IMG/VR virus record: IMGVR_UViG_3300010354_000744
Location: 1-22,330 of that record
Direction: 5' to 3' (one strand)
DNA: 22,330 nucleotides
Source of the DNA: a virus
Positions 1,995-22,330 of the stretch are shown piece by piece. A program made the position numbers and the translations under genes. Positions within the stretch are counted from its first letter, which is position 1; each line of letters opens with the position of its first letter. The notes under the pieces were generated by a model that made no database searches, was not told where the DNA came from, and saw only the letters and a program-made list of their open reading frames with translations.

Positions 1995-2009
1995 CTGCTC
2001 TAGGTTTCC

Positions 2010-2882: not shown

Positions 2883-2891
2883 TACTTAACA

Positions 2892-3224
2892 ATGGCAGCA
2901 AAAAAGGCCATCCGATCAACAGATGCAACGATCGAACTCCGAGCCGCAGAGTTCGCCAGGATCATTGCTGCCGGTGGTCGTCGGTCTGATTGCTTGCGAT
3001 TTGCCGCAGAAAATTGGGGGGTGCAATCCCGAACCTGCGACGCATACCTCGCCATGGCACGGGATCAGCTCCGTGCTGACTGGGACATCGAGCGCCCGCA
3101 GATGATCGCTGATCTGCTCAGCCAATGCGCCACACTCCAGCAGGAGGCCCGCGCTGCAGGCCATCTCCACATCGCCCTAGGTGCCATCAACACTGCTGCC
3201 AGGCTTGCTCAGCTGGTGTCGTGA
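2892..3224 (+). CDS. terS: terminase small subunit, TerS-like (110 aa)
   Basis: Located directly before TerL and overlapping its start by four bases (GTGA). The product opens with a basic segment (MAAKKAIRSTD), followed by a helix-turn-helix-like region at about residues 27-58: RRSDCLRFAAENWGVQSRTC then DAYLAMARDQL. This resembles TerS proteins that recognise packaging sites. The C-terminal half is helical (RPQMIADLLSQCATLQQEARAAGHLHIALGAINTAARLAQL), which in TerS families drives ring oligomerisation. Length is short but within the TerS range. The call rests on the helix-turn-helix pattern plus position; sequence alone would not give a firm family. Confidence 0.75.
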   Translation: MAAKKAIRSTDATIELRAAEFARIIAAGGRRSDCLRFAAENWGVQSRTCDAYLAMARDQLRADWDIERPQMIADLLSQCATLQQEARAAGHLHIALGAINTAARLAQLVS

Positions 3225-4588
3225 GCTACCTATGGGCAGAAAGGACGGGTCACGTCCTGATGCCGTCTGGCCCGGTCGCTGAAGCCTTCGACCCGCAGCA
3301 GGCGCTCCATGCGATCCGCGCAGGCCTCCACGGTGAGCAGCGCACATTCTTCGATGACCTGCAGACCAGGATCCTCGGGGCAACTGCAGGTTATGGCGCC
3401 GGCAAGACGTGGTCCCTCTGCGCCAAGGCTGTGAGCCTGGCCATCGCCAATCCTGGCATTACCGGCTGCGTCCTGGAGCCCACGGGACCCCTAATCCGCG
3501 ACATCTGGCAGCCGGACTTTGAGGCCTTCATGGATGAGTACAGCATCCCCTACACGGCTAGACAGTCGCCATTGCCGGAATACGTGCTGCATCTACCCGA
3601 TGGTGATACGAAGATTCTGTGCCGATCGTTTGAGAACTGGCGCCGAATCATCGGCCTGAACCTTGCGTGGGTCCTAGCCGATGAGATCGATACGGTTGAT
3701 CCCAAAATCGCCCAGCTGGCATTCCCTAAGATCCTCGGCCGCTTGCGTGCTGGGCAGGTGCGGCAGTTTGCGTCAGCATCCACGCCAGAAGGGTTCCGAT
3801 GGATGTATAAGACCTTCCAGTCAGATGATGGACAGAAACGAGCCGATCGACGACTGGTCAAGATGCGGACTCGTGATAATCCACACCTGCCTGATGATTA
3901 CATTGAAACGCTAGAAGCAAACTACGACCCGCAGCTGCTTAAGGCGTACCTTGAAGGTGAGTTCGTCAACCTCACCAGCGGGCAGGTTTATGACCGCTTC
4001 AATCGTGCGGTACACGTCAAGCCGTGCCATCTGGCAGTTGATGAAGATGACGGCATCCTGGACACGATCTACGCTGGCCTTGACTTCAACATTGGCAACA
4101 CCAACGCCATCTGCTGCATCCGTACAGCAGCCGGCGGCCTACATGCCTTCGCTGAAATCAATGCGCACGATACCGAAGCGATGGGGCAGGAGATGCGGCG
4201 ACGGTTTGGCGATGCAAAAATCCTGGGATACCCCGATGCCAGTGGTAACAATCGGTCAACTAACAGCGCACGATCAGATATTGCGATTCTTGAATCCTAC
4301 GGGATCCGCAATCAAGCACCAGCCAAGAACCCCCCGATCCGTGATAGGGTCGTAGCTGTTCAAGCGCTACTGGAGAACGGCAAGGGGCAGCATCGCCTCT
4401 TTATCGATCCGTCATGCACCGGATTGATCGAAGACCTAGAACAACAGGCATACGATGACCGTGGCGAACCTGACAAGTCGCACGGTAATGATCACAGGCC
4501 TGATGCGCTTGGTTATGTCGTCCACAGATTGTTTGCGGTTGAACGTTCCACATCACGCCAACCCGTACGCGGCATCCGCGTTTATTGA
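3221..4588 (+). CDS. terL: terminase large subunit (ATPase-nuclease, 455 aa)
   Basis: DNA-packaging motor. The N-terminal ATPase has Walker A at residues 56-63 (AGYGAGKT) and Walker B at about 148-155 (LAWVLADE). The C-terminal RNase H-like nuclease shows the expected acidic residues: D288 in GLDFNIGNT, D339 in YPDASG and D428 in HRPDALGYVVHRLF. Length is normal for TerL. The open frame extends upstream to 3125, but that part lies entirely over terS and is Cys/Pro/His-rich nonsense. I choose GTG 3221, which overlaps the terS stop as GTGA; ATG 3260 (442 aa) is the alternative. A sigma factor, not the portal, follows after six bases, which is unusual. Confidence 0.95.
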   Translation: MSYLWAERTGHVLMPSGPVAEAFDPQQALHAIRAGLHGEQRTFFDDLQTRILGATAGYGAGKTWSLCAKAVSLAIANPGITGCVLEPTGPLIRDIWQPDFEAFMDEYSIPYTARQSPLPEYVLHLPDGDTKILCRSFENWRRIIGLNLAWVLADEIDTVDPKIAQLAFPKILGRLRAGQVRQFASASTPEGFRWMYKTFQSDDGQKRADRRLVKMRTRDNPHLPDDYIETLEANYDPQLLKAYLEGEFVNLTSGQVYDRFNRAVHVKPCHLAVDEDDGILDTIYAGLDFNIGNTNAICCIRTAAGGLHAFAEINAHDTEAMGQEMRRRFGDAKILGYPDASGNNRSTNSARSDIAILESYGIRNQAPAKNPPIRDRVVAVQALLENGKGQHRLFIDPSCTGLIEDLEQQAYDDRGEPDKSHGNDHRPDALGYVVHRLFAVERSTSRQPVRGIRVY

Positions 4589-4594
4589 CCTTCT

Positions 4595-5452
4595 ATGTCT
4601 GCACTCAAGTCATCAATGCCCGTCATCTTCGATGGGCTGCCTCGACTGCCATTATTGACCAAGGCCGAAGAGATTCACCTGGCGACTGTCGTTCAGGCTG
4701 GCCTGAAGCCAGGCGCAACACCACGACAACAGGCAGCAGCAAGGCGCGCACGCCATCGGATGATTAATGCCAATATCCGATTGGTGATCACGCAAGTCAA
4801 AAAAGCAGTCAGGCGCGATACGCCAGCCCTTGGATTTGATGATCTGTTTCAGGAGGGAATGCTAGGCCTGTCGCGAGCTGTGGATCTGTTTGATCCAAGC
4901 CGAGGATATAAGTTTTCTACTTATGCGTACTGGTGGATTAAGCAGTCTCTGTCTCGTGCGTTCCCGTCGTATGGCACGACCATTCGATATTCGACGCACA
5001 TTCACGACAAGCGACGCGCCATCCTCAAATGGGTGGCAGCCTATCAGAATGAGCATCGGCATAACCCGACTCTGCCTGAGATCGCTAAGCAGTTCGATCT
5101 GAGCTTGGACATGCTGGCCAAGACGATGGCCTGCGCAGATCAGACGAAATCGCTTGACGCTTCGACTGGTTATGAAGATGCATCATGCTTGCATGAAGTT
5201 ATTGCTGCTCCGCCGCCGGATGATGACTTTGATTACGATGAGTTTGACATTGTCGACGTAATGACCTGCATCAACCTGCTGGACGAAAAGTCGCGCTACG
5301 TCATAGAGAAGCGGTTTCTGACTAAGGAACCGTCATCATTGCAGGCGCTGGCCGCAGAGCTTAACGTCAGCCGTGAACGTGTGCGGCAGATCAACTGCAG
5401 GGCCCTAGGCCAAATCCGGCAACGGCTCGAAATCCTGCGCAGGGCAAGCTAG
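4595..5452 (+). CDS. phage-borne RNA polymerase sigma-70 factor, group-2-like (285 aa)
   Basis: A complete sigma factor. Region 1.2-like LPLLTKAEEIHLA is at about 18-30. Regions 2.1-2.4 are at about 51-125, with LGFDDLFQEGMLGL, FDPSRGYKFSTYAYWWIKQSL and the -10-reading segment (TTIRYSTHIHDK). Region 3 is at about 126-195 and region 4 at about 226-281, with the -35-reading helix-turn-helix AAELNVSRERVRQINCRAL. The architecture matches cyanobacterial group 1/2 sigma factors without the long region 1.1. In 2.4 the usual R-L-P before H-I is R-Y-S, which could shift -10 preference. An acidic insert (PPPDDDFDYDEFD, 206-218) links regions 3 and 4. It sits between terL and portal, so it should be expressed with them and could redirect host polymerase to phage promoters. 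An ATG at 4616 is an alternative start. Confidence 0.92.
   Translation: MSALKSSMPVIFDGLPRLPLLTKAEEIHLATVVQAGLKPGATPRQQAAARRARHRMINANIRLVITQVKKAVRRDTPALGFDDLFQEGMLGLSRAVDLFDPSRGYKFSTYAYWWIKQSLSRAFPSYGTTIRYSTHIHDKRRAILKWVAAYQNEHRHNPTLPEIAKQFDLSLDMLAKTMACADQTKSLDASTGYEDASCLHEVIAAPPPDDDFDYDEFDIVDVMTCINLLDEKSRYVIEKRFLTKEPSSLQALAAELNVSRERVRQINCRALGQIRQRLEILRRAS
5443..5451 (+). repeat. junction element GGCAAGCTA, copy 1
   Basis: First of five exact copies of GGCAAGCTA. It forms the last codons of the sigma factor (reading R-A-S-stop) and lies 13 bases ahead of the portal start. The context GGCAAGCTAGGCCATGG is nearly identical to copy 5 before the tape measure start. Confidence 0.6.
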
Positions 5453-5455
5453 GCC

Positions 5456-6901
5456 ATGGGATACACCGCCTCATCAGCGTCTCTGGCCGGCAACCAGGCG
5501 ACCATCCAAGAGCTAAAGGTAGAGGATCCAGGCCTCGCCTGGCGTCGGATGGCGCCACGTTGGGAGCTGCTCGAAGCGCTGATGGGCGGAACGCTAGGAA
5601 TGCGGCGGCAGTCGACGTTATGGCTGCCGAAGGAGCCAGCAGAGCAGGACGACAGCTACAACCGACGCCTCGGCCAGTCGGTGTGTCCGCCGTACTTCCG
5701 GCGCCTGCTGGCCATGCTGGCCGGCATGCTGACCCGCAAGCCGGTGCGGCTCGAAGATGTGCCTGACGCGATCCGTGAGGATCTGTTTGATGTTGACCTG
5801 CAGGGCAACAATCTGGACGTCTGGCTCAATGCTGCGGCACGTACAGCATTGCAGTATGGCCACGTCGGGGTGCTGGTCGACTATCCGCGATCAGACGAGG
5901 GTGGCGTTGGTGATCGCCCCTACTGGGTGGCCTACAGCCCGCGCGACATTCTGGGATGGCGGACTGAAATGTCATCAGGCCGGCAGGCGTTGACGCAGCT
6001 GCGGCTTAAGGAACGCATCTCCGTAGCCTATGGCGAGTTCGGTGAGGAACTGGTCGAGCAAGTGCGAGTCCTGGAGCCTGGCCGGTTCAGGCTGTACCGC
6101 AAGCAGATCAGCCGCACCGGCAGTTACGACCTAGTCGAAGAAGGAGCGATGACGCTAGATGAAATCCCGTTCGCGGTGGCCTATGCCGATCGGGTCGGGC
6201 TGTTTGAGTCGCAGCCGCCAATGGAAGAGGTCGGTTGGCTGAACCTCCAGAGCTACCAGCGCAATAGCGACCTAGCGAATCAGCTGCACATTGCGGCCGT
6301 GCCGCGCCTTGTCGGCTATGGCGTACCGGTCGAAACCGATGAGGTGGAGAATGGCCCGGAAACCATGATGGCCCTGCCGGTTGATGCAAGGATTGATTAC
6401 GTCGAGCCTGGCGGCACCAGCTATCAGTATCAGTTCCAACATCTGGAGATGATTCGCAGCCAGATCAATGAGCTAGGTGTGGCTGCGATTCTGGGACAGA
6501 AAAACGTCGCCGAGTCTGGCATGGCCAAGAGCATTGAGCGCAGCCAGGGTGATGCGGCATTGATGCAACTTGGGATTCAGCTGCAGGATCTTGTCGACAA
6601 CTGCCTGCGGATGCATGGCGAACTGCGCGGTGTGCCACAGCCTGGCGCTGCAGTGGTCAATCGCGACTTTGTCGAGACCAAGCTGGAACCGGCGCAGGTG
6701 CAGCAGATCATTGCGTTGTACACCAATGGAATGGTGACACTGCAGGCGGCGCTTGAGCAGCTGGAGCAGGGCAATGTCCTATCTGAAGACTTCGACGTTG
6801 AGGCCGAGGTGGAAGCTGTCGGGGCGATGGAAGACGCCAGGCTGCAGAGCAGGGCCGATCAGCTGCAGGGGGCGCTCAATGAGCTGCCAGGGGCAAGCTA
6901 A
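5456..6901 (+). CDS. portal protein, DUF4055-like (481 aa)
   Basis: The portal is the dodecameric ring through which DNA enters and leaves the head. Recognisable features are the N-terminal helical part, the TLWLPKEPAEQDDSYNRRL segment, PYFRRLLAMLAGMLTRKPV, and RTALQYGHVGVLVDYPR, all typical of the DUF4055 portal group. Also visible are a central beta-rich wing (RVLEPGRFRLYRKQ) and a long C-terminal helical region with ILGQKNVAESGMAKSIERSQ, the likely stem/crown. Length agrees with the family. The start at 5456 is four bases after the sigma stop. The C-terminal tail is Gln/Leu/Glu-rich (ARLQSRADQLQGALNELPG). It ends in GAS-stop, which carries copy 2 of the junction element. Confidence 0.88.
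   Translation: MGYTASSASLAGNQATIQELKVEDPGLAWRRMAPRWELLEALMGGTLGMRRQSTLWLPKEPAEQDDSYNRRLGQSVCPPYFRRLLAMLAGMLTRKPVRLEDVPDAIREDLFDVDLQGNNLDVWLNAAARTALQYGHVGVLVDYPRSDEGGVGDRPYWVAYSPRDILGWRTEMSSGRQALTQLRLKERISVAYGEFGEELVEQVRVLEPGRFRLYRKQISRTGSYDLVEEGAMTLDEIPFAVAYADRVGLFESQPPMEEVGWLNLQSYQRNSDLANQLHIAAVPRLVGYGVPVETDEVENGPETMMALPVDARIDYVEPGGTSYQYQFQHLEMIRSQINELGVAAILGQKNVAESGMAKSIERSQGDAALMQLGIQLQDLVDNCLRMHGELRGVPQPGAAVVNRDFVETKLEPAQVQQIIALYTNGMVTLQAALEQLEQGNVLSEDFDVEAEVEAVGAMEDARLQSRADQLQGALNELPGAS
6892..6900 (+). repeat. junction element GGCAAGCTA, copy 2
   Basis: Second exact copy, at the very end of the portal gene (reading G-A-S-stop), 28 bases before the start of the small Lys-rich gene. The downstream ribosome site AGGAAAC follows it. 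Confidence 0.6.
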
Positions 6902-6919: not shown

Positions 6920-7114
6920 ATGGCCAAGAAACCGACCAAGGGTGAAGAAAAAGTCGCTAAGGTCATGGGCGAATACAAGCGCGGCACATTGCGCACCGGC
7001 AAGCCAGGGCCCGGCAAAGGCGGCAAGGTCACAAGCCGTAAGCAGGCTATTGCTATCGCCATGAGTGAAGCTGGCATGACCAAAAAAGGCAAGGCCAAGA
7101 AACCGAAAAAATGA
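6920..7114 (+). CDS. small Lys/Gly-rich protein, DUF6496-like (64 aa)
   Basis: Short, very basic protein with the pattern KVAKVMGEYKRGTLRTG, then a Gly/Lys-rich turn (PGPGKGGKV) and SRKQAIAIAMSEAGM, followed by a poly-Lys tail (KKGKAKKPKK). This arrangement matches my recollection of the DUF6496 family of small proteins found in bacteria and many phages; its function is not established. AGGAAAC ends 4 bases before the ATG and gives a good ribosome site. It lies between portal and scaffold with two other basic proteins in the cluster, so a DNA- or capsid-associated role is possible but unproven. Confidence 0.75.
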   Translation: MAKKPTKGEEKVAKVMGEYKRGTLRTGKPGPGKGGKVTSRKQAIAIAMSEAGMTKKGKAKKPKK

Positions 7115-7144: not shown

Positions 7145-7579
7145 ATGGCCAGGACTTACAAGCGTGATTCCGCCGGCCGGTTCTCCTCTGGCGGCGGCGG
7201 CAAAAGCGATCGATCAAATAAGCCGGCCAAAGGCAAGACAGCGGGCTATGAACAAAGCCTAAAAAATCTGGACCGCATCAACAAGCTTGAGCAAAGCAAA
7301 AGCAAAAAATCAGCAGATAGGCCAGCTAACAAAATTGCGCCATCACCTCGAAGGTCGTCTCCATTTGAAAAAGCTGTTGCCGATGTGCTGACATCATCTA
7401 AGTTTAGGTCGGACAAAAAGCGAATTGCTGAGCTGTCTCGCCGTGGGTTTCCATCTGACCTTAATAGCATTGCAACAATGCGAGCAAACATTCTGCGCAA
7501 GCAGAAAGCAGATACTCATAAGCCTGAAAGCGTAAAAGCCGCACTAATGCGAGCTGCAGGCAAGAAACCCAAAAAGTGA
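7145..7579 (+). CDS. basic protein with GRFSSGGGG N-terminus (144 aa)
   Basis: Not assigned to a family. The N-terminus, MARTYKRDSAGRFSSGGGG, is nearly the same as that of the protein at 13052 (MARNQKRDSRGRFASGGGG); such RDxxGRFxSGGGG starts recur in phage structural genes. The rest is Lys/Ser-rich, probably disordered to about residue 70, then helical (FEKAVADVLTSSKFRSDKKRIAELSRRGFP and NSIATMRANILRKQKADTH), ending KKPKK. Codon use looks more AT-rich (many aaa/agc) than in the portal. It may be a minor head or DNA-binding protein; that is inference from charge and position. Confidence 0.7.
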   Translation: MARTYKRDSAGRFSSGGGGKSDRSNKPAKGKTAGYEQSLKNLDRINKLEQSKSKKSADRPANKIAPSPRRSSPFEKAVADVLTSSKFRSDKKRIAELSRRGFPSDLNSIATMRANILRKQKADTHKPESVKAALMRAAGKKPKK

Positions 7580-9820: not shown

Positions 9821-9993
9821 TGGGATTGTTTGCGTTCAGGCGATTGCGTGAGCGTCAACAGGAGGCCTCTGCCACTGCGGCAGGGGCCTTTCCCGTTGTT
9901 GAGCCACCAGAGGCCACGCCTGAGCCTGCAGCCGTGCCACAGCGGCGCGTACAGGCCAGGGGGCGACGGCAAGCTAAAGCACAGGAGGATTGA
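9820..9993 (+). CDS. small basic Pro-rich protein (57 aa)
   Basis: ATG 9820 overlaps the stop of the previous gene as TGATG. The frame is open further upstream (to 9607), but that part lies over the previous gene and is a shadow. The product starts MGLFAFRRLRERQQE, has a Pro/Glu/Ala-rich middle (VVEPPEATPEPAAVP) and an Arg/Lys-rich end (RRVQARGRRQAKAQED); it is probably disordered. No family recognised. It carries copy 3 of the junction element near its end and the strong AGGAGG ribosome site of the next gene (9983-9988). Confidence 0.55.
   Translation: MGLFAFRRLRERQQEASATAAGAFPVVEPPEATPEPAAVPQRRVQARGRRQAKAQED
9968..9976 (+). repeat. junction element GGCAAGCTA, copy 3
   Basis: Third exact copy, near the end of the 57-aa gene and 29 bases before the next start. 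Here it is read in a different frame (R-Q-A-K), so conservation is at DNA level, not protein level. Confidence 0.6.
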
Positions 9994-9996
9994 TCG

Positions 9997-10518
9997 ATGA
10001 GCGTACTGAGTCGCGGCGGTGGTGATACAACGATCCTGAATCGAGGCCAGGGCTATCGGTCGGAGGTGGTGTTCACGCGACCGGCAAACACCACGGCATA
10101 TACGGCCGGCGACATTATCGGCAGTGCCACGAGTGCGGTTCATGAGTTCACGCAGGTGAGCAGTGCCGGCGGTGATGTTGTGATCTTTGCCGCTGAATTG
10201 ATGATTGACCTGTCGGCCGTACCGTCGGGGATGTCAAGTTTCAGGCTGCATGTTTACAGCAATACGCCAACCGCTGCCAGCGACAATGCAGCTTTTGACT
10301 TAAGTGCTGCGGAACGGTCAGTGTATATGGGCTACATTGACTTTACAACGCCTGAAGACCTAGGGTCGACATTGTTCACGCAGACGCGGTTTGTGTATAT
10401 GCAAGGGCAACTGCCTAGCAATGCAACGAGCCTATTTGGTGAACTGCAAACGATTGGAGGATATACACCAACCAGCGGTGAAGGCTATCGAATCAGACTG
10501 CGCACGATTGAGGTGTAA
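9997..10518 (+). CDS. virion structural protein of unknown type (173 aa)
   Basis: Strong ribosome site AGGAGG (9983-9988) eight bases before ATG 9997. The product has short N-terminal Gly-rich residues (MSVLSRGGGDT), then mostly beta strands: YRSEVVFTRPANTTAYTAGD, VVIFAAELMIDLSAVP, SSFRLHVYSNTP, VYMGYIDFTT, FTQTRFVYMQGQL, SLFGELQTIGGYTP, GYRIRLRTIEV. This is a jelly-roll-like pattern seen in small phage head or tail proteins annotated as hypothetical; no family named. Its stop overlaps the start of the fibre-like gene (TAATG), suggesting the two are made together and may interact. Confidence 0.72.
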   Translation: MSVLSRGGGDTTILNRGQGYRSEVVFTRPANTTAYTAGDIIGSATSAVHEFTQVSSAGGDVVIFAAELMIDLSAVPSGMSSFRLHVYSNTPTAASDNAAFDLSAAERSVYMGYIDFTTPEDLGSTLFTQTRFVYMQGQLPSNATSLFGELQTIGGYTPTSGEGYRIRLRTIEV

Positions 10519-12064: not shown

Positions 12065-13047
12065 ACCGCAGCGTTGAGCGGTTCCTGCGTAATGCCGTCC
12101 GGGAACGCACGACCGAGGATCGCATCCTGCGGCAGGTGTTGCGTGATCTGCGCCTCAGCCTGCAATCAGTGCGGCGGTTCCTCGATGCCGCTGATCTGCT
12201 GACGCCATCGCCAGGCCGTGAACAGGCCATCCGTACCGCCGTCAGCGCCATTGCAGCATCAATGGCTCGCCAGTGGGGCCAGCCGACCCTGCAGGGGTTC
12301 CAAGAGGCGATGGTGCCATGGTTTGAGCAGCAGCTCGAGCTGGCCCGAGACCTAGCCCGCCTATCTGGTGATGCATTGCCGCAGGCCGGCGCTGTGACTG
12401 CTGCTAATGCAGGCCTGGCGCGGATCGTCAATGAGTCGATCGTTGGCGGTAAGACGCTGGCCCAGAGCCTGCAGCAGTCAATCCCGGTATTGGTTGCCGA
12501 TCGTGTTGAGCGGTTGGTGCGGCTCGGCTTGTCTGACGTTGCAGGCGAAACGTATGCAACCTACAAAGATGCGGTCGTGCGAACCACGGAAAATGCAGTC
12601 GAGGCCATCATCCGCACCGGCGTTCATGAGGTTGGATCTGCTGCGCAACAGCTGATCTACGAAGTTGAGACCAGTCCAGAGTTCAGGGCTGCCAAGGCGC
12701 TGGTATGGACGGCAGTGCTTGATGGCCGCACTTGCCCGATCTGCATAGGCCTCGACGGCAAGCGGTTTCCCGTTGACTACCAGAAGGTCAGCCCGCATTT
12801 CAACTGTCGGTGCTACCTGGTGCCGACCGGCTGGCGCGATGAGCCTGGGGCATCACGGCCAAGCGGTGAGGGACTGCAGGGGCCCGAGGTGTCGTTCACG
12901 GTCTCTGCGCGGGACTGGGTCAAGAGCAACCGTGAGGCCGCTCGCGATATTTTCGGCAAGCGGCTCGGGGATCGGCTGGCCGATGGCGAGCTGGATTTCA
13001 ACCAGGCGCTGAAACAATGGCGGCAACCTAGGGGCAGAGGATCTTGA
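12049..13047 (+). CDS. Mu gpF-like head morphogenesis / minor head protein (332 aa)
   Basis: The family signature is unmistakable: W220-x4-D225-x3-C229-P-I-C232-x3-D-G-K, followed by SPHFNCRCY (H250, C253, C255), the Cys/His cluster of the phage Mu protein F group. The N-terminal 200 residues are helical (RSVERFLRNAVRERTTEDRIL, RQWGQPTLQGFQEAMVPWFEQQ). The C-terminus has a second small region (VSARDWVKSNREAARDIFGKRLGDRLADGELDF). These proteins assist early head assembly and DNA ejection and usually sit right after the portal. Here the gene is over 5 kb downstream, after the capsid and fibre genes. Start 12049 overlaps the previous gene by 16 bases. Confidence 0.88.
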   Translation: MASDLDRSVERFLRNAVRERTTEDRILRQVLRDLRLSLQSVRRFLDAADLLTPSPGREQAIRTAVSAIAASMARQWGQPTLQGFQEAMVPWFEQQLELARDLARLSGDALPQAGAVTAANAGLARIVNESIVGGKTLAQSLQQSIPVLVADRVERLVRLGLSDVAGETYATYKDAVVRTTENAVEAIIRTGVHEVGSAAQQLIYEVETSPEFRAAKALVWTAVLDGRTCPICIGLDGKRFPVDYQKVSPHFNCRCYLVPTGWRDEPGASRPSGEGLQGPEVSFTVSARDWVKSNREAARDIFGKRLGDRLADGELDFNQALKQWRQPRGRGS

Positions 13048-13051
13048 GTTA

Positions 13052-13495
13052 ATGGCCCGCAATCAGAAGCGCGACAGCAGGGGCCGATTTGCGTCTGGTG
13101 GTGGCGGGTCATCACCCAAGACGACAACGGCAAAGGGTAGGGCTAGGGCAAAGGAGGCAGCGGCTCGGGCTGAGGTGAAGGCTGGCGGTGGCAGCAAGGC
13201 GACTCGTAGTCTGCTGGTTGCTCAGCGTGCCAGGGATTATTACAAGGCCACTGGCACCGGCACCAAGCGATCGGCGACCAAGGCTGCTGCTGCTGCGCCT
13301 GCGGCCAAGTCCAAGCCGGCCAAGATGAGCAAGGCGCCGGCCAATGCTGCCAAGGCCAAGTACAAGGCCGCTCGAAGCCAGGTCAGGGAACTGAAGATGT
13401 ATCGTGGCGGCAAGTCTGATGCTGTTGTCAAGAAGGCAGAAGCGAAGGTCAAGCGGATGGAGAAGACCCGCCGGTCGTCGAAGGCGAGGATCTGA
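13052..13495 (+). CDS. histone-H1-like basic protein with GRFASGGGG N-terminus (147 aa)
   Basis: The N-terminus MARNQKRDSRGRFASGGGG repeats that of the 7145 protein. The body is Lys/Ala-rich with short AK repeats (KRSATKAAAAAPAAKSKPAK, KAPANAAKAKYKAARSQ), closely resembling eukaryotic/bacterial H1-like tails. A helical segment (KSDAVVKKAEAKVKRMEKTRR) ends the protein. Very basic with low complexity, it is likely disordered and nucleic-acid binding, perhaps packaged with the genome or bound to the capsid interior; this is inference from charge. It follows the gpF-like gene by four bases, and its stop overlaps the next start (TGATG). Confidence 0.7.
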   Translation: MARNQKRDSRGRFASGGGGSSPKTTTAKGRARAKEAAARAEVKAGGGSKATRSLLVAQRARDYYKATGTGTKRSATKAAAAAPAAKSKPAKMSKAPANAAKAKYKAARSQVRELKMYRGGKSDAVVKKAEAKVKRMEKTRRSSKARI

Positions 13496-14067: not shown

Positions 14068-14622
14068 GTGCAGCTGTCGTTGCCGGGCATTGAATCAAAG
14101 CCCGGCCGGCAGCAACGTGGGCCGCTATCACGTGAAGAATCAAAGCGGATCGGTGCTTTGTATGTCGAGCATCGAAAGCTGGTGCATCATTTCACTCGCA
14201 AGCTACGGCAGCGATTTCCGATGATGGCGCCGGAAGATGTGGCGTCATGCGTTGATATTGCGTTTATCAAGGCCGCAAGGGTATGGGACCCTGAACGTGG
14301 CAGATTGTCGACGATTGTTGGCGTTTATGCCATTGGCGAATGCCGACATTATGTAAGGGACCACAACTGGACGATCAAGGCACCAGCCAAAGTGCGAGAG
14401 CTGGGGGTGACAATACGAAGGCTGATGGATAGCGGGATGGGATCTGATGCAGTGGCGCAACAGCTGAACATCGGCCGCGAGGAATTGCGGCTGGCATTAC
14501 TGGCAACGGCTGGCGTTGGCCATGATCGACTTGATTTTGAGCTGCACATTAGTGATGCGGCGACGCCAATGGAGCTATTGGAGGCAGCCGAAGGGCAAGC
14601 TATGGCAGATCATCAGGATTGA
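14068..14622 (+). CDS. second sigma-factor-like protein, region 2 only (184 aa)
   Basis: GTG start with AGGAG (14056-14060) seven bases upstream. Residues about 34-100 match sigma-70 region 2: EHRKLVHHFTRKLRQRF (2.1), then APEDVASCVDIAFIKAARVWDPERGRLSTIVGVYAIGECRHYVRDHNW (2.2-2.4), where WDPERGRLST parallels FDPSRGYKFST in the first sigma factor. TIKAPAKVRELG follows like region 3.0. A predicted helix-turn-helix lies at about 113-146 (TIRRLMDSGMGSDAVAQQLNIGREELRLAL). No region 4 is visible, so -35 reading and part of the polymerase contact would be missing. It may be a minimal sigma, a sigma-derived regulator or an adaptor. Copy 4 of the junction element lies near its end. Similarity is by pattern; a profile search is needed for certainty. 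Confidence 0.75.
   Translation: MQLSLPGIESKPGRQQRGPLSREESKRIGALYVEHRKLVHHFTRKLRQRFPMMAPEDVASCVDIAFIKAARVWDPERGRLSTIVGVYAIGECRHYVRDHNWTIKAPAKVRELGVTIRRLMDSGMGSDAVAQQLNIGREELRLALLATAGVGHDRLDFELHISDAATPMELLEAAEGQAMADHQD
14594..14602 (+). repeat. junction element GGCAAGCTA, copy 4
   Basis: Fourth exact copy, inside the last codons of the second sigma-like gene (frame G-Q-A-M), 32 bases before the GTG of the tail tube gene. The following AGGATTGA is shared in part with the stretch after copy 3. Confidence 0.6.
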
Positions 14623-14625
14623 CGC

Positions 14626-15354
14626 GTGGGCTATTTCGCCGCCTTCAACTACAGGATGTGGGTCAAGGCGGGGACGACCGCCAGCCTGAATCCGACAAAC
14701 CGCACGAGCTTTACCGAACTGGTCAACGGTTCAAACTTCAGCCTGCAGGGCAGCACCGACAGCCAGCAGGTCGTTGACTACGGCTCGAGCTTTGGCTTTA
14801 AGACCCAACTGGTTACCGGCAACAGCTACAGCATCCCGGTCACGATGAACCTGGACGTTACCAGCGCTGGGTATCAGGCCTGCAAGGCGGCCTACAAAGA
14901 TGCAACCGCCGGCGCGACGCTGCAGTGGTGGAGGGAAACCCCGGTCACCGACGGCAGCAGCGCGTCTTACCCCGAGGTGCATACCGGCGTGGCGCAGGTG
15001 TCGGACTTCTCCGAGGATGTGCAGGCCGGCAACATCGCATCGGTCAGCTTCACTCTGACGGGCTACGGCTCCTATGTGTTCGTGAAACAGGGCCTGTCTG
15101 GTGCCGTGACTGCGGTCACAACCAGCGGCGGCAGCGTCGGGTCGGGCCTCAGCAATGCCACCTATACCGGCATTGCGCTCTACGGCGGTTCTGGCGTTGG
15201 CGCAACGGCCACGTTCGTTGTGGGCAGCGGTGCTGTCACCAGCGTGACGCTGGTTGCTGGCGGCCGAGGCTATGTCAACGGTGAAATCCTGACGCCGCTG
15301 CTGGCCAGTATTGGCGGCACCGGTACAGCGCCGACGGTTGTTGCTACCGTGTGA
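14626..15354 (+). CDS. major tail tube protein with C-terminal add-on domain (242 aa)
   Basis: GTG start with AGGA seven bases ahead. The N-terminal 155 residues follow the siphophage tail tube pattern: AFNYRMWVKAGTT, FTELVNGSNFSL, a conserved FGFKTQLVTGNSYSIPVTMNLD, GYQACKAAYKDATAGATLQWWRETP, then HTGVAQVSDFSEDVQAGNIASVSFTLTGYG, which closes the barrel. The C-terminal 70 residues (from SGGSVGSGLS) form a separate beta domain with GSGVGATATFVVGSGAVTSVTLV and GRGYVNGEIL, a common decorative module in phage tail and fibre proteins. The tube forms the DNA channel. It is followed by an intrinsic terminator, closing this transcription unit. Confidence 0.85.
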   Translation: MGYFAAFNYRMWVKAGTTASLNPTNRTSFTELVNGSNFSLQGSTDSQQVVDYGSSFGFKTQLVTGNSYSIPVTMNLDVTSAGYQACKAAYKDATAGATLQWWRETPVTDGSSASYPEVHTGVAQVSDFSEDVQAGNIASVSFTLTGYGSYVFVKQGLSGAVTAVTTSGGSVGSGLSNATYTGIALYGGSGVGATATFVVGSGAVTSVTLVAGGRGYVNGEILTPLLASIGGTGTAPTVVATV

Positions 15355-15376: not shown

Positions 15377-15406
15377 AGCCCCAGGAGTGATGCCCTGGGG
15401 TTTTTT
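15377..15406 (+). terminator. intrinsic terminator after the tail tube gene
   Basis: CCCCAGG (15379-15385) pairs with CCTGGGG (15394-15400) around an 8-base loop, extended by A-T and G-T pairs, and is followed by six Ts (15401-15406). It is oriented to stop + strand transcription 23 bases after the tail tube stop. On the minus strand there is no T-tract after the stem, so it should not stop the opposing minus operon. Confidence 0.85.
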
Positions 15407-15864
15407 CATGCCGTGGCACCAGACAGGCGGCGCCATTGCTGAGCAAAGAACACATCAAGCGGATGCCGATTCAGGGCCGGCAGGATCCAGTTACGGCCTG
15501 GGATGTCTTTAGTGATTGCTCCACGGCCATTGACGTAGCCAGAGGAGCCATTTAGCACGAGAGGCGCATAGGGGGCCTGTGGGCCGCCCCAGCGGTAGCC
15601 AAGGCTCAATCCTGCAGCGCCTAGCGTGATGCGCTGCTGCGAGGCTCTGAGGCGCCCCAGGTCGACGATATCCCGAGGGCTGCCGACCACCTGCCCATTG
15701 CGCCGAACCGTTGTGCGTGGCCACGGGAACTGAGCAGTGCTGATCTCGGTCTTGAAAGCCGGGAAGATCACGGCATCGTATTGCCGAAGGATGATCGGCA
15801 CCCTGGCGGAGATGAACTGCAGCGAGAATCCTGTCAGCTTGGCAGTTGCCCTGATCTGGGTCAT
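15406..15864 (-). CDS. neck / tail-completion protein, HK97-gp10-like candidate (152 aa)
   Basis: Second gene of the inverted pair. Features are an N-terminal helix with TGFSLQFISARVPIILRQYDAVIF, then a conserved-looking block FPWPRTTVRRNG...VGSPRDIVDLGRLRASQQ. RDIVDxGRLxxSQ is the same pattern as the DTGxLxxS region of HK97 gp10-type proteins. Then follow YAPLVLNGSSGYVNGRG and a C-terminal GRNWILPALNRHPLDVFFAQQWRRL. Such proteins seal or complete the head-tail junction. Its start overlaps the stop of the upstream minus gene (ATGA), and its stop directly abuts the T-tract of the + strand terminator. Function from position and motif; medium certainty. Confidence 0.65.
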   Translation of the reverse strand: MTQIRATAKLTGFSLQFISARVPIILRQYDAVIFPAFKTEISTAQFPWPRTTVRRNGQVVGSPRDIVDLGRLRASQQRITLGAAGLSLGYRWGGPQAPYAPLVLNGSSGYVNGRGAITKDIPGRNWILPALNRHPLDVFFAQQWRRLSGATA

Positions 15865-16268
15865 TGTGTTTGGCTGGTCTGCCGATAGCGAACAATGCGG
15901 ACACGATCACCGATGACCTGCTGCAGGGTTGAGCCGATCAATCCGGTGGTGCCATATGGTTCACGACTTTTGACCAGCTCGCATGGCATCGGATCATCAG
16001 CCGAGAATGCAAGCAAACCGCGAACACCGGCGACGATCCTGACGTCTAGCGCCTGCGGATCAATGGCATAACCGTCGAAGACATCAACGGCACTGCCAAC
16101 GCCTGGGACGTCGGTTTCCGAGATGCTGCCTTGTCGTAGATAGAGACTGACCGAGACACGTTCGGTGCGGGGCAGGACGTTACCTGTGCGCTGATCAACG
16201 ATGGTGCCAACGGTCGGCACATCGAAGGTAGCGATAGCGTTCTGCAGTGCCAGGAGAGCTGAAGCCAT
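15861..16268 (-). CDS. unknown protein paired with the neck gene (135 aa)
   Basis: First gene of the inverted pair. The frame is open to 16307, but I choose ATG 16268 (MASALLALQNAIATFDV), because GGAAACC lies a few bases upstream and a longer start would overlap the tape measure start. The product is alpha-beta with GTIVDQRTGNVLPRTERVSVSLYLRQG, DVFDGYAIDPQALDVRIVAGVRG and DRVRIVRYRQ. No motif names it; its place next to the gp10-like gene suggests a head-closure or tail-completion protein. It is translated in a coupled way with the next gene (ATGA at 15861-15864). Only 26 bases separate its start from the divergent tape measure gene. Confidence 0.65.
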   Translation of the reverse strand: MASALLALQNAIATFDVPTVGTIVDQRTGNVLPRTERVSVSLYLRQGSISETDVPGVGSAVDVFDGYAIDPQALDVRIVAGVRGLLAFSADDPMPCELVKSREPYGTTGLIGSTLQQVIGDRVRIVRYRQTSQTQ

Positions 16269-16281
16269 GGGATAGGTTTCC

Positions 16282-16290
16282 GGCAAGCTA
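16282..16290 (+). repeat. junction element GGCAAGCTA, copy 5
   Basis: Fifth exact copy, the only one in non-coding sequence, between the divergent starts of the minus operon and the tape measure gene. It lies 13 bases before the tape measure ATG, the same distance as copy 1 from the portal ATG, and the two contexts agree over GGCAAGCTAGG-N-CATGG. Confidence 0.6.
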
Positions 16291-16294
16291 GGGC

Positions 16295-18487
16295 ATGGCG
16301 GAATCACTCGGCACTGTTGAGCTTGGCATTAAGGTCGAGCAAGATCAGGCGACACGAGACCTGAGGCGATTTGCGACGACGGCAGAGCGTGCCGGCAGTG
16401 AAGCGGCAGCAGCATTCAAGGGCTTTGATCAACGGCTAGGGCTGGCATCAGCAGCCGTCAATTCGCTAGGAGCAGCGTTAGGCACGCTGGCGGTTGGTGA
16501 GTTTCTGCGGCAATCGGTGCAGGCTGCGATTGAGCTTGAAACCATTACACGAAAGCTGACAAATACGCTAGGAGAACAAGGTGCAGCCGGAGCGCTGAAC
16601 TTTACGCGCGGCCTGGCTGATGATCTTGGCCTGTCATTCAAGACGTTAGCGCAAACATTCAGCAGCTTTACGGCAGCTGCAACGGCAGCGAATGTACCGA
16701 TCGAGACTCAGCGCGATCTGTTCGCTGCGGTGAGCAAGGCAGCGCAGCAGCTGGGGCTCAGTGACGATGAATTGTCCGGTAGCCTGCTGGCGCTGCAGCA
16801 GGTCGCGAGCAAGGGCACTGTGCAGATGGAAGAACTGCGGGGGCAGCTTGGAGAGCGCCTGCCGATTGCGTTTGCTGCAGCCGCCAGGGGCCTAGGGCTG
16901 ACACAACAGGAGCTGATCAAACTGGTTGAATCAGGGAAGCTGACCGCCGATCAATTCTTCCCGGCGTTGACCAAGGGGTTAAACGAGCTGACGGCAAGCG
17001 CAGATGGGATGCCAACGGCAGCGCAAAACATTGCAAAGTTCCAGAATGCACTAGACGACCTTAAAACAACAATCGGTCAAGACATCCTGCCGTTAATCGA
17101 GCCCTTCATTAAAGGGCTTGCCGAAGTTGCGCAAGGAATCAAGATTGTCTCGGATGCCTCAAAGCTAGGATTTAACAGTGGCCTTGCTACGTATCTTGGC
17201 TTTATTCCAGATCAAGGTGCTCAAGCTGTCGGCGCATTACGAGCATTACAGGAACAATTTAACCTAACCGACAAACAAGCCCGAGCATTATTCACAGATG
17301 CAGCAAAAGAGTCCGGTGGAACCGTAACGGCCTTTGGTCAGCTGCAATTATCGGCAGAGCAGTTTGAGGCAGTGCTGAAGCGATTGCCGGCACTGGCAAA
17401 AGAGTTCCGTGATAAGTACCCAGATCGGCAAACACAACTGCAGGCCGAGAATGCAGCGGCAGCAGCATTGCTGGCGCAACAGGCCAAGAGCGTCAACAGC
17501 ATTGACAACCTAAACGCAAAGCTCAAAGCTCAACGCGATGAACTGAACAAGGTCGAAATTGGCAGCCAGCGGTTTCAACAGCTGACGCAAGACATCAAGA
17601 GCACCGAAGGGCAACTGAAGACCGCGACTGAGGCAGTCAAAGGAACGGTCAGCGCTTTTGGCCAGCTGCAACGGGTCAGCACGCAAGGTCTTGACTTCCG
17701 GCAGCAGGACATCGGCCTAGCTCAGTCGCGTCTCGACATCATCCGGCAGGTTGCGCAGGCTGAACAGGATGTGGCCAACGCGCGGCTCAGCCTTGAGGGG
17801 GCCTTGCTGAATGCGCAGGAGCAGCGGGCGCTGAAAGGTGTGCAAGGCGAAGAAGCGCGGCAGCAGATTATTGAGGCCTTTCAGCGACGCAGGGAAGAGA
17901 TTGAGGCGCGGCAGTTCGCTATCCGTGAGCAATCAACCAAGCTTGAATTAGAGCAGAAAACTCAGTCACTACGGCTAGAAGCGCAGATCACTGAATTAGC
18001 GGCACAGCGCGGCGTCATTCAAGCCAGGATCGCATTAGCACAGGCAACCAGAACGGGCGACACGAACCAGATTGCAGCGGCGCAAGAAGGTTTGCAGCTG
18101 GCTGAGCGTGAACTGCAGATTGCAAAGCAAATTAACAACGAAAAGCTAACCGGGCAGCAGCGCATTAACCAGTTGAGATTGCAACAGCTTGAGCTAGAAA
18201 AAAATGCAGCTATGGCCGACAACCTGCCGCCATTGCCTAAGCCATTGGACGCCAGGAACGGAATCATTGAGTTTAAGATTGATCCGACTCCAGTTGATCG
18301 CAATAGCCAAGCCGTTGGCGATGCTGCCCAGCAGATCGGCAGCAGTAATCAGGAATTGTTGCAGCAGGTCAACCGAAATACACAAGCGATCGAGACGCTG
18401 GCAAACAAAGACTGGACGGTGCAGGTTCAGGTCGAAAACCAAGCCGGCGGAGACACCACGATCAATTCCTTTAGCCAACTGCAATGA
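16295..18487 (+). CDS. tape measure protein (730 aa)
   Basis: Sets tail length and passes through the tail tube. The N-terminal 240 residues match the tape measure N-terminal domain: LGTVELGIKVEQDQATRDLRRF, AIELETITRKLTNTLG, SFKTLAQTFSSFTAAA and the strongly conserved SKGTVQMEELRGQLGERLP, then GLTQQELIKLVESGKLTADQFFP. The rest is helical and Gln/Ala/Leu-rich with coiled coil at about 395-430 and 480-620. A segment TV(T/S)AFGQLQ occurs at about 344-352 and 450-459, and the protein ends NSFSQLQ. No membrane segment is obvious. At roughly 0.15 nm per residue, a tail of the order of 100 nm is expected. The stop overlaps the next start (ATGA). Confidence 0.92.
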   Translation: MAESLGTVELGIKVEQDQATRDLRRFATTAERAGSEAAAAFKGFDQRLGLASAAVNSLGAALGTLAVGEFLRQSVQAAIELETITRKLTNTLGEQGAAGALNFTRGLADDLGLSFKTLAQTFSSFTAAATAANVPIETQRDLFAAVSKAAQQLGLSDDELSGSLLALQQVASKGTVQMEELRGQLGERLPIAFAAAARGLGLTQQELIKLVESGKLTADQFFPALTKGLNELTASADGMPTAAQNIAKFQNALDDLKTTIGQDILPLIEPFIKGLAEVAQGIKIVSDASKLGFNSGLATYLGFIPDQGAQAVGALRALQEQFNLTDKQARALFTDAAKESGGTVTAFGQLQLSAEQFEAVLKRLPALAKEFRDKYPDRQTQLQAENAAAAALLAQQAKSVNSIDNLNAKLKAQRDELNKVEIGSQRFQQLTQDIKSTEGQLKTATEAVKGTVSAFGQLQRVSTQGLDFRQQDIGLAQSRLDIIRQVAQAEQDVANARLSLEGALLNAQEQRALKGVQGEEARQQIIEAFQRRREEIEARQFAIREQSTKLELEQKTQSLRLEAQITELAAQRGVIQARIALAQATRTGDTNQIAAAQEGLQLAERELQIAKQINNEKLTGQQRINQLRLQQLELEKNAAMADNLPPLPKPLDARNGIIEFKIDPTPVDRNSQAVGDAAQQIGSSNQELLQQVNRNTQAIETLANKDWTVQVQVENQAGGDTTINSFSQLQ

Positions 18488-21320: not shown

Positions 21321-22063
21321 CGGCAGTCCTGCTGCAGACGACGACAGCACTGCAGGTGTCAGCAACGACGCCGGCTGCCATCTGGTTTCCGACGGCGCCA
21401 GGTGTCACGAGCCTGCCTGCAGCGCCTGCGGTAACGGTCAATCCATCGCCATACCCACCCAATAGCGTGGCGGTGCCTGCAGGGTTCGACAGGGGCAACC
21501 TCCAGGCCCTATTCGGCAGCATCCTGCCCTATGGCACGGCGGCGGTATGGCCTCGGGAGATGAATGCCACGACGGTCTTGCCGCCATATAACGAGATCGT
21601 CCCAACGGTTGGCGAAACACGCACGGCATGCGATGTCCTGGACTTCCCGTATACGTTCACGCTGCCAGGGGCAACCGCAACACTGCAGACCACAACGGCG
21701 CTGCAGGTGGTCAGCCTGTGGCTGGTTGGCAGTGAGACGCTGACGCTAGGCACGACGACGGCCTGTGATGTGTCGAGCCTGTTTCAGGTTGGCATCCATC
21801 AGGTGCCAGCCGTTATCACGACGCAACTGCACGTGACGACCTATGCCGTCGGGCTGCTGTTCTTTGATACATCGTGTGCCGTTGTAGTGGCGCCGCAGGT
21901 GTCGCTTGAAGTGGCGACGACATCTAGCGTGGTGCGGGCGCCAGATATTGTGCTGACAACAGGGCCACAACTGATGGTTATCGAGCGGACCTACTTCAGT
22001 GATTGGAGCTGGCAGAATTACGAATGGGACGCTGATACGTGGCCGGAGGGATGGGCAAACTAG
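21317..22063 (+). CDS. tail protein with repeated Thr-rich motifs (248 aa)
   Basis: No family recognised. The sequence has a repeated motif LQTTTALQV at residues 6-14 and 123-131, alternating with TRTACDVLDF (101-110) and TTTACDVSSLF (146-156), and looser echoes (TTQLHVTTYAV, SLEVATTSSVV). A beta-repeat or stacked-strand structure is likely. The first half also has a Pro/Ala-rich part (TAPGVTSLPAAPAVTVNPSPYPPN). The C-terminus is Trp-rich (SDWSWQNYEWDADTWPEGWAN), as often at the start of a binding domain. Position after the hub suggests tail-tip fibre or spike component. ATGA overlap with the hub gene. Confidence 0.7.
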   Translation: MTAVLLQTTTALQVSATTPAAIWFPTAPGVTSLPAAPAVTVNPSPYPPNSVAVPAGFDRGNLQALFGSILPYGTAAVWPREMNATTVLPPYNEIVPTVGETRTACDVLDFPYTFTLPGATATLQTTTALQVVSLWLVGSETLTLGTTTACDVSSLFQVGIHQVPAVITTQLHVTTYAVGLLFFDTSCAVVVAPQVSLEVATTSSVVRAPDIVLTTGPQLMVIERTYFSDWSWQNYEWDADTWPEGWAN

Positions 22064-22080: not shown

Positions 22081-22330
22081 ATGACAGCACCGAATCTACG
22101 AACACCAGCGACGGTAACAGGCAAGACCGCTGTGGCATTGGTTAGCACCAGCAATGCAGCGGTGCTGACAAATGCAGCGGCCAGTGGCAAGGCGCTGAAG
22201 ATCACGACGGTACGAGCGGCAAACATTACCGCGAGTGCTGCGACGATCAGCGTCAGCCATTATCGAAGCACGACGCATCGGTATTTGGTGAAAGGCAGCA
22301 GCGTGGATGCTGGAGAGGCGTTGATAGTGA
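22081..22330 (+). CDS. small virion protein, 3'-truncated by window end
   Basis: Starts at ATG 22081, forced because an in-frame TGA lies six bases upstream; the frame is still open at the window end (83 codons). The product MTAPNLRTPATVTGKTAVALV followed by TSNAAVLTNAASGKALKITTVRAANI and SAATISVSHYRSTTHRYLVKGSSVDAGEALIV matches my memory of small cyanophage structural proteins with the VTGKTA...VTNAA...(K)xxxxVxAANx pattern, of beta-sandwich type. It lies after the tail-tip genes, so it may be a baseplate or fibre attachment protein. It resembles the decoration-like protein at 9422 in composition. Family call from recollection, moderate certainty. Confidence 0.7.
   Translation, partial: MTAPNLRTPATVTGKTAVALVSTSNAAVLTNAAASGKALKITTVRAANITASAATISVSHYRSTTHRYLVKGSSVDAGEALIV

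Follow-up and report, generated by a model that had tools for sequence, protein, structure and literature searches.

The window analyzed here, a virus record of 22,330 bases, encodes two sigma-like proteins. The first is a full sigma-70 family factor whose gene lies between terL and the portal gene, in a cassette that has been swapped relative to the nearest relative found. The second, termed sig2, retains regions 2 and 3, lacks region 4, and co-occurs across phages with a short promoter-like motif that points toward the next gene and keeps one of two preferred spacings to the start codon. As a whole, an explanation in which the full sigma would act earlier and sig2 would direct late transcription is judged somewhat probable. 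The genes concerned are as follows.

3125 to 4588, plus strand: terL open reading frame (phrog_2, 2e-38), with a start probably downstream of 3125
4595 to 5452, plus strand: full sigma-70 family factor, 285 amino acids, ATG start, regions 2, 3, and 4 and a partial region 1.2
5456 to 6901, plus strand: portal protein (phrog_145, 4e-103; DUF4055)
14068 to 14622, plus strand: sig2, sigma-like protein, 184 amino acids, regions 2 and 3, no region 4, N-terminal QLSLPG

An intact sigma factor between terL and portal

The frame at 4595 to 5452 confirmed the initial annotation of an intact sigma-70 factor between terL and portal, with matches in Pfam, PHROG, and the PDB. Pfam profiles for region 2 (1.2e-14; 54.3 bits against a cut-off of 24), region 3 (7.5e-07), and region 4 (1.5e-12; 47.3 bits) were all matched above their cut-offs. 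The claim that all regions are recognizable therefore stood for regions 2, 3, and 4; region 1.2 was partial and fell just under its cut-off (21.1 bits against 22, profile positions 13 to 32 only). The protein also matched PHROG 351, “RNA polymerase sigma factor” (1.2e-60), and its closest solved structures by sequence in the PDB were cyanobacterial SigA (6.5e-36) and proteobacterial RpoS (~6e-35). An AlphaFold model (mean pLDDT, 82.8) placed helices where sigma domains are expected. In alignments, region 2.3/2.4 retained the WW, Q, and R residues, the last two of which we take to be the equivalents of E. coli Q437 and R441, with S at the equivalent of T440, and region 4.2 (SRERVRQI) was canonical. 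Region 2.4 read TTIRYSTHIH, compared to TIRLPVHL in a host SigA; the replacement of the host R-L-P by R-Y-S, described from the sequence earlier, was thus seen in the alignment, and the homologue in the nearest relative has R-A-S. Because regions 2 to 4 are complete and the canonical promoter-reading residues are kept, the protein is functional looking and no fragment, as had been proposed, and it is highly probable that it is a functional sigma factor.

The likeness to a housekeeping or group 2 cyanobacterial factor did not hold. The best NCBIfam family was TIGR02997 (cyanobacterial RpoD/SigA, groups 1 and 2), which has the same architecture but differs in carrying R-L-P rather than R-Y-S in region 2.4, and the score of 195.5 bits was below the curated cut-off of 384.5; the nearest bacterial relatives were only ~33 to 37% identical. 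Full sigma factors are known in the cyanosiphoviruses S-CBS3 (rpsD4), KBS-S-2A (RpoD-like), and S-LBS1 (PMC3751600, PMC6157547). Like the factor in the window, these have regions 2 to 4 and ~300 amino acids; those of S-CBS3 and KBS-S-2A are 31 to 36% identical to it, and their genes are located away from terL and portal.

Exchange of the sigma cassette

The nearest relative of the window, L060 (IMGVR 3300029933_000472), has terL and portal proteins that are 95% and 97% identical to those of the window and likewise holds a sigma gene in the slot between them, the product of which is 52% identical in a gap-free alignment. DNA identity between the two records fell from ~92% to ~50 to 70% at ~4560 and recovered at 5443, the right breakpoint coinciding exactly with a copy of the promoter-like motif. 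Synonymous divergence (dS) was 0.44 in terL, 1.65 (near saturation) in sigma, and 0.38 in portal, and the proportions of fourfold sites that differed were 26%, 69%, and 21%, respectively. Since synonymous sites are near saturation in sigma but not in its flanks, rapid evolution in place was ruled out as the source of the divergent sigma, and the pattern is consistent with recombination in the flanking sequence that substituted a divergent homologue. A second replaced segment relative to L060 was observed at 2890 to 3300, covering the small-terminase region and the terL N terminus; DNA similarity of terL to L060 begins at 3311.

The closest isolates by terL and portal were S-H1, KBS-S-2A, and the Prochlorococcus phages MED4-184 and MED4-117, and none of the three checked (S-H1, KBS-S-2A, and MED4-184) had a sigma gene in the slot. 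The slot of S-H1 contained other frames, one of them kinase-like by eye; that of KBS-S-2A contained a small frame, with the phage's own sigma gene ~10 kb away on the opposite strand; and that of MED4-184 contained no annotated gene. Eighty IMG/VR relatives were retrieved with a terL profile, 67 of which had both terL and portal. No sigma gene lay between the two genes in any of the 67, the gap ranged from 6 to 3,144 bp, and the cargo recognized by eye elsewhere included HNH, helicase plus methylase, kinase-like, and PAPS-reductase-like frames. Among contigs retrieved by sigma and having a confident terL, sigma was at least 10 kb from terL, except in L060. A slot sigma as a family trait was thus ruled out by the 67 relatives. 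The varying gaps, differing cargo, and relatives without a slot sigma identify the terL-portal interval as a variable cargo site, at which a sigma gene is, as far as seen, peculiar to the lineage of the window and L060. Within what could be searched, this placement and the cassette swap are new. The interval had been described as normally tight, which the gap range contradicts, and the comparison of synteny found relatives' slots without sigma, L060 excepted. The suggestion that expression is tied to packaging was borne out insofar as sigma is codirectional with terL; against it, a late-promoter-like motif occupies the last codons of sigma and, if it is a late promoter, would begin portal mRNA anew.

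Origin and role of the full sigma factor

Two trees each joined the sigma factors of the window and L060 with full support, placing the pair at the end of a long stem and outside all supported host clades. The pair grouped with phage sigma factors at moderate support (92 in one tree and 79 in the other); a grouping with host sigma factors was not rejected (AU test, P = 0.118). Capture from a cyanobacterial host, as first suggested, is therefore excluded as a recent event, the pair lying outside every supported host clade in both trees; a deeper host origin is tolerated by the AU test and may underlie the lineage.

It is possible, with some doubt, that the full sigma works for the phage ahead of its late phase. 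A host-derived factor directed chiefly at host promoters, for instance to sustain host metabolism, and inessential to the phage program would also have kept its core promoter-reading residues and would be compatible with the AU result, with the lack of recognized phage target promoters for this factor, and with its absence from some relatives. That reading is nevertheless unlikely given the long phage-only stem and the L060 slot, which holds another intact sigma and so suggests selection for having one.

sig2, a second sigma-like protein

The gene at 14068 was not mentioned in the initial annotation. Its product, sig2, matched Pfam region 2 above the cut-off and, like the full sigma, PHROG 351 (1.6e-12), although over only ~120 of the 928 profile positions; all 22 aligned sig2 members matched the same profile. 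Nearly all PDB matches of a sig2 profile were sigma factors (SigB, 2.7e-8), together with one probably spurious match to a CAP repeat; T4 gp55 was absent from the matches. Profile alignment (hhalign) to full sigma factors gave 96.5%, in regions 2 and 3 only. The AlphaFold model had a disordered N terminus, and the listed Foldseek matches were nearly all sigma chains; whole-chain superposition was poor, and the isolated SigE N-terminal domain superposed at 2.1 Å over 76 columns. The region 2.3 tryptophan pair was lost in the alignment.

Relatives of sig2 were found in L230 (97% identity), L231 (74%), L232 (72%), and ~48 more IMG/VR loci (40 to 53%). In the window, sig2 sits between a head-tail adaptor gene and a tail gene, and in the relatives inspected it also follows the adaptor gene. 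No clear relative was present among 50,697 phage records, and the combination of the sig2 family and the motif was found neither in isolates nor in the open-license papers searched.

In T4, gp55 is a region 2 sigma factor with a C-terminal clamp-binding tail (PMC7892883, PMC2988020). The T4 gp55/gp45 system resembles sig2 in architecture (a region 2 homologue of ~185 amino acids without region 4), in a late motif of the −10-only type, and, as far as most sig2 members go, in a flexible end with a motif of the clamp-binding kind. It differs in that the clamp-binding tail of gp55 is C-terminal and the clamp-binding-like motif of sig2 N-terminal, and sig2 keeps part of region 3; the T4 late element also differs from the GGNAASCTAGG of sig2 phages, which have siphovirus head genes.

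The absence of region 4, the loss of the tryptophan pair, and the position between adaptor and tail genes would suit a sigma-derived protein that no longer initiates transcription and acts instead as an antagonist of host sigma or in virion assembly. Such a role appears improbable, because T4 gp55 works even though it lacks region 4 (PMC7892883, PMC2988020) and because the motif that co-occurs with sig2 is of −10 type without a −35 block, as predicted for such a factor.

The N terminus of sig2

In bacteria, the consensus for clamp binding is QL[S/D]LF (PMC9690074). Most sig2 members carried N-terminal forms QLDLF, QLSLF, QLCLF, QLDFF, or QLALF, and several subclades had the canonical form. The subclade of the window carried QLSLPG, QLALPG, or QLAFPG, the QLSLPG of the window being noncanonical; another subclade had a weaker EQPSLDL form, and a third (L235, L266, and L271) had no clamp-like motif. 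Of 36 distinct sig2 proteins, 8 had QL[SD]LF at the N terminus and 23 had a relaxed form; among 5,909 other frames, the corresponding counts were 0 and 13.

A phage-borne gene for a DNA polymerase III beta clamp was seen in several relatives that lack sig2, namely L147 (18187 to 19236) and G073 to G075; the sig2-bearing contigs yielded none. A clamp of the phage's own as the partner of sig2 was therefore unsupported, and the host clamp must be assumed. By analogy with T4, tethering of sig2 to that clamp is a credible if still tentative proposal. The full sigma factor of KBS-S-2A (L148, 7779 to 8708) ends in a clamp-binding-like QLPLIP, a single case that its near relatives lack.

A promoter-like motif at gene starts

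The following motif copies were found in the window.

2001 to 2009, minus strand: GGAAACCTA, preceding the minus-strand gene at 1994 to 1695
5443 to 5451, plus strand: GGCAAGCTA, portal ATG 4 nt downstream; right breakpoint of the sigma cassette
6892 to 6900, plus strand: GGCAAGCTA, preceding the gene at 6920
9968 to 9976, plus strand: GGCAAGCTA, preceding the gene at 9997
13022 to 13030, plus strand: GGCAACCTA, preceding the gene at 13052 (basic protein, followed by Ad1 and then sig2)
14594 to 14602, plus strand: GGCAAGCTA, preceding the gene at 14626
16273 to 16281, minus strand: GGAAACCTA, back to back with the copy at 16282; ATG of a minus-strand gene 4 nt downstream
16282 to 16290, plus strand: GGCAAGCTA, tape measure ATG 4 nt downstream
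22054 to 22062, plus strand: GGCAAACTA, preceding the gene at 22081

All five exact copies of GGCAAGCTA in the window were on the plus strand and within 40 nt before a gene, and five copies of any 9-mer were reached in 0 of 1,000 trials of random placement of upstream windows. Allowing one mismatch at any position gave a count that 6 of 100 shuffles reached, which is unremarkable alone; the case for the motif rests on the exact copies, their placement and direction, and the wider set of phages. The pattern GGMAAVCTA occurred at 9 sites (0.53 expected), a count that is partly circular because the variants were drawn from the window itself; all nine faced the next gene, two minus-strand genes included. 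Copies were conserved at the same junctions in L060 and L230 to L232. Standard sigma-70 promoters showed no excess in the window (4 sites, with 5.7 expected by chance).

A blind search for overrepresented 9-mers at gene starts recovered the same motif family in G069, G068, G071, G056, G061, and G064 and did not find it in S-H1, KBS-S-2A, MED4-184, S-CBS3, or G073. Across 20 sig2-bearing sets, some of them near copies of one another, the window-derived pattern was found at 100 sites (18.2 expected; 5.5-fold), 85 of which preceded a start codon. Across 19 sets without sig2, in 6 of which absence was judged by the phrog_351 search only, it was found at 32 sites (29.4 expected), 3 of them before a start codon. 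With the window, L231, and L232 removed, 82 sites remained against ~16.9 expected, and the pattern outnumbered each of 300 scrambles of its own letters. In the 106-kb contig G056, enrichment was limited to the sig2-bearing stretch, the first 60 kb being near chance.

Among 106 nonredundant sites, information was confined to GGNAA[C/G]CTAGGnCA and a weak stretch rich in A downstream of it, and no −35 block was present upstream. The distance from the motif to the first possible start codon was either 4 nt (18 sites) or mostly 18 to 25 nt, with few between, and several sites formed back-to-back divergent pairs, such as that at 16273 to 16290. Sigma region 2 reads an A and a T at two positions of the −10 hexamer; the NAASCT of the motif keeps both, and the CA falls where transcription would be expected to start. 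From its form and distribution, the motif is very likely a promoter. If transcription began at the A of the ATG or beside it, the portal and tape measure mRNAs would be leaderless, and the copy at 13022, upstream of sig2, may allow sig2 to boost its own supply.

The swapped sigma segment ends on its right exactly at the copy at 5443, which would suit a recombination sequence at module boundaries; a translation signal was also considered. Both are quite unlikely: the motif tracks gene direction on both strands and forms divergent pairs, whereas a recombination linker would have no orientation rule; its spacing is 4 or mainly 18 to 25 nt, whereas a ribosome-binding signal would have a single spacing; and a CA stands where the transcript would be expected to begin.

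Which factor reads the motif

Motif copies were most numerous in G070 and G071 (~46 kb), which have sig2 and lack the full sigma; no enrichment was seen in KBS-S-2A, S-CBS3, and G074 to G076, which have a full sigma. Because of this pattern, sig2 is reasonably likely to be the factor that reads the motif. Both sig2 and the motif are clade-wide, so that their co-occurrence essentially counts as one contrast in evolution, and no clade member lacking sig2 was found in which the relevant region was clearly complete. Although the window carries both genes and the altered region 2.4 (RYS) of the full sigma could shift −10 specificity, it is very unlikely that the full sigma rather than sig2 reads GGNAASCTA and controls late genes, since the pattern just described speaks against it and the motif has no −35 block although the full sigma retains a canonical region 4.2. 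This reading would also need the full sigma of L060, which differs, to recognize the same motif, a copy of which precedes portal there.

Other features of the window and its relatives

A tRNA scan of the window found none, and megablast of the window against phages gave no match. A PAP2/vanadium-haloperoxidase-like gene (PF01569) lies near the left end (487 to 1698); it is also in L060 (86% identical) and is thus apparently phage-borne, an odd cargo for a siphophage. Two genes, probably for head closure and tail completion, are inverted within the plus-strand late region (15406 to 16307, minus strand), with a strong terminator-like hairpin at 15377 to 15402 and the divergent motif pair at 16273 to 16290; the inversion is common to L230, L231, and L232, and such genes are on the plus strand in KBS-S-2A. 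Lysine-rich basic proteins are encoded at 6920 to 7114, 7145 to 7579, and 13052 to 13495, and those at 7145 and 13052 start with MAR..KRDS.GRF.SGGGG, which recurs in frames in the terL-portal gaps of L159, L164, L166, and L170. G056 (IMGVR 3300027151_000002) seems to be two joined phages or phage-like segments with separate tape measure genes. L077, a contig filed as a Sphingomonadales genome, encodes a sigma that nearly matches the one in the viral contig L025 and is probably a phage contig that ended up in the bin.

Proposed model and implications

In the proposed model, region 2 of the full sigma would bind the host's core RNA polymerase, which the factor, with its kept −10- and −35-reading residues, would steer to phage promoters ahead of the late phase. 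The full sigma would not be a required step, because it is absent from some sig2 phages whose size is nearly complete. Late genes would begin from the short GGNAA[C/G]CTAGGnCA promoters without a −35 element. These would be read by sig2, which has no region 4 and the N terminus of which may tether it to the host replication clamp, as T4 gp55 is tethered to gp45. We infer from this, rather tentatively, that an uncultured group of cyanobacterial siphophages may have independently evolved replication-coupled late transcription through a clamp-motif sig2, with some leaderless mRNAs, and with the full-sigma cassette acting earlier.

The literature describes the activation of late transcription by a clamp as particular to T4-related phages (PMC2988020). 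If the model is true, these phages would provide a second, apparently independent case, and clamp-coupled late transcription would be a convergent solution. The motif is concrete and can be tested in vitro, and it would allow promoters to be mapped in uncultured cyanophages. The swapped cassette indicates that phages trade promoter-reading factors while the surrounding genes barely change.
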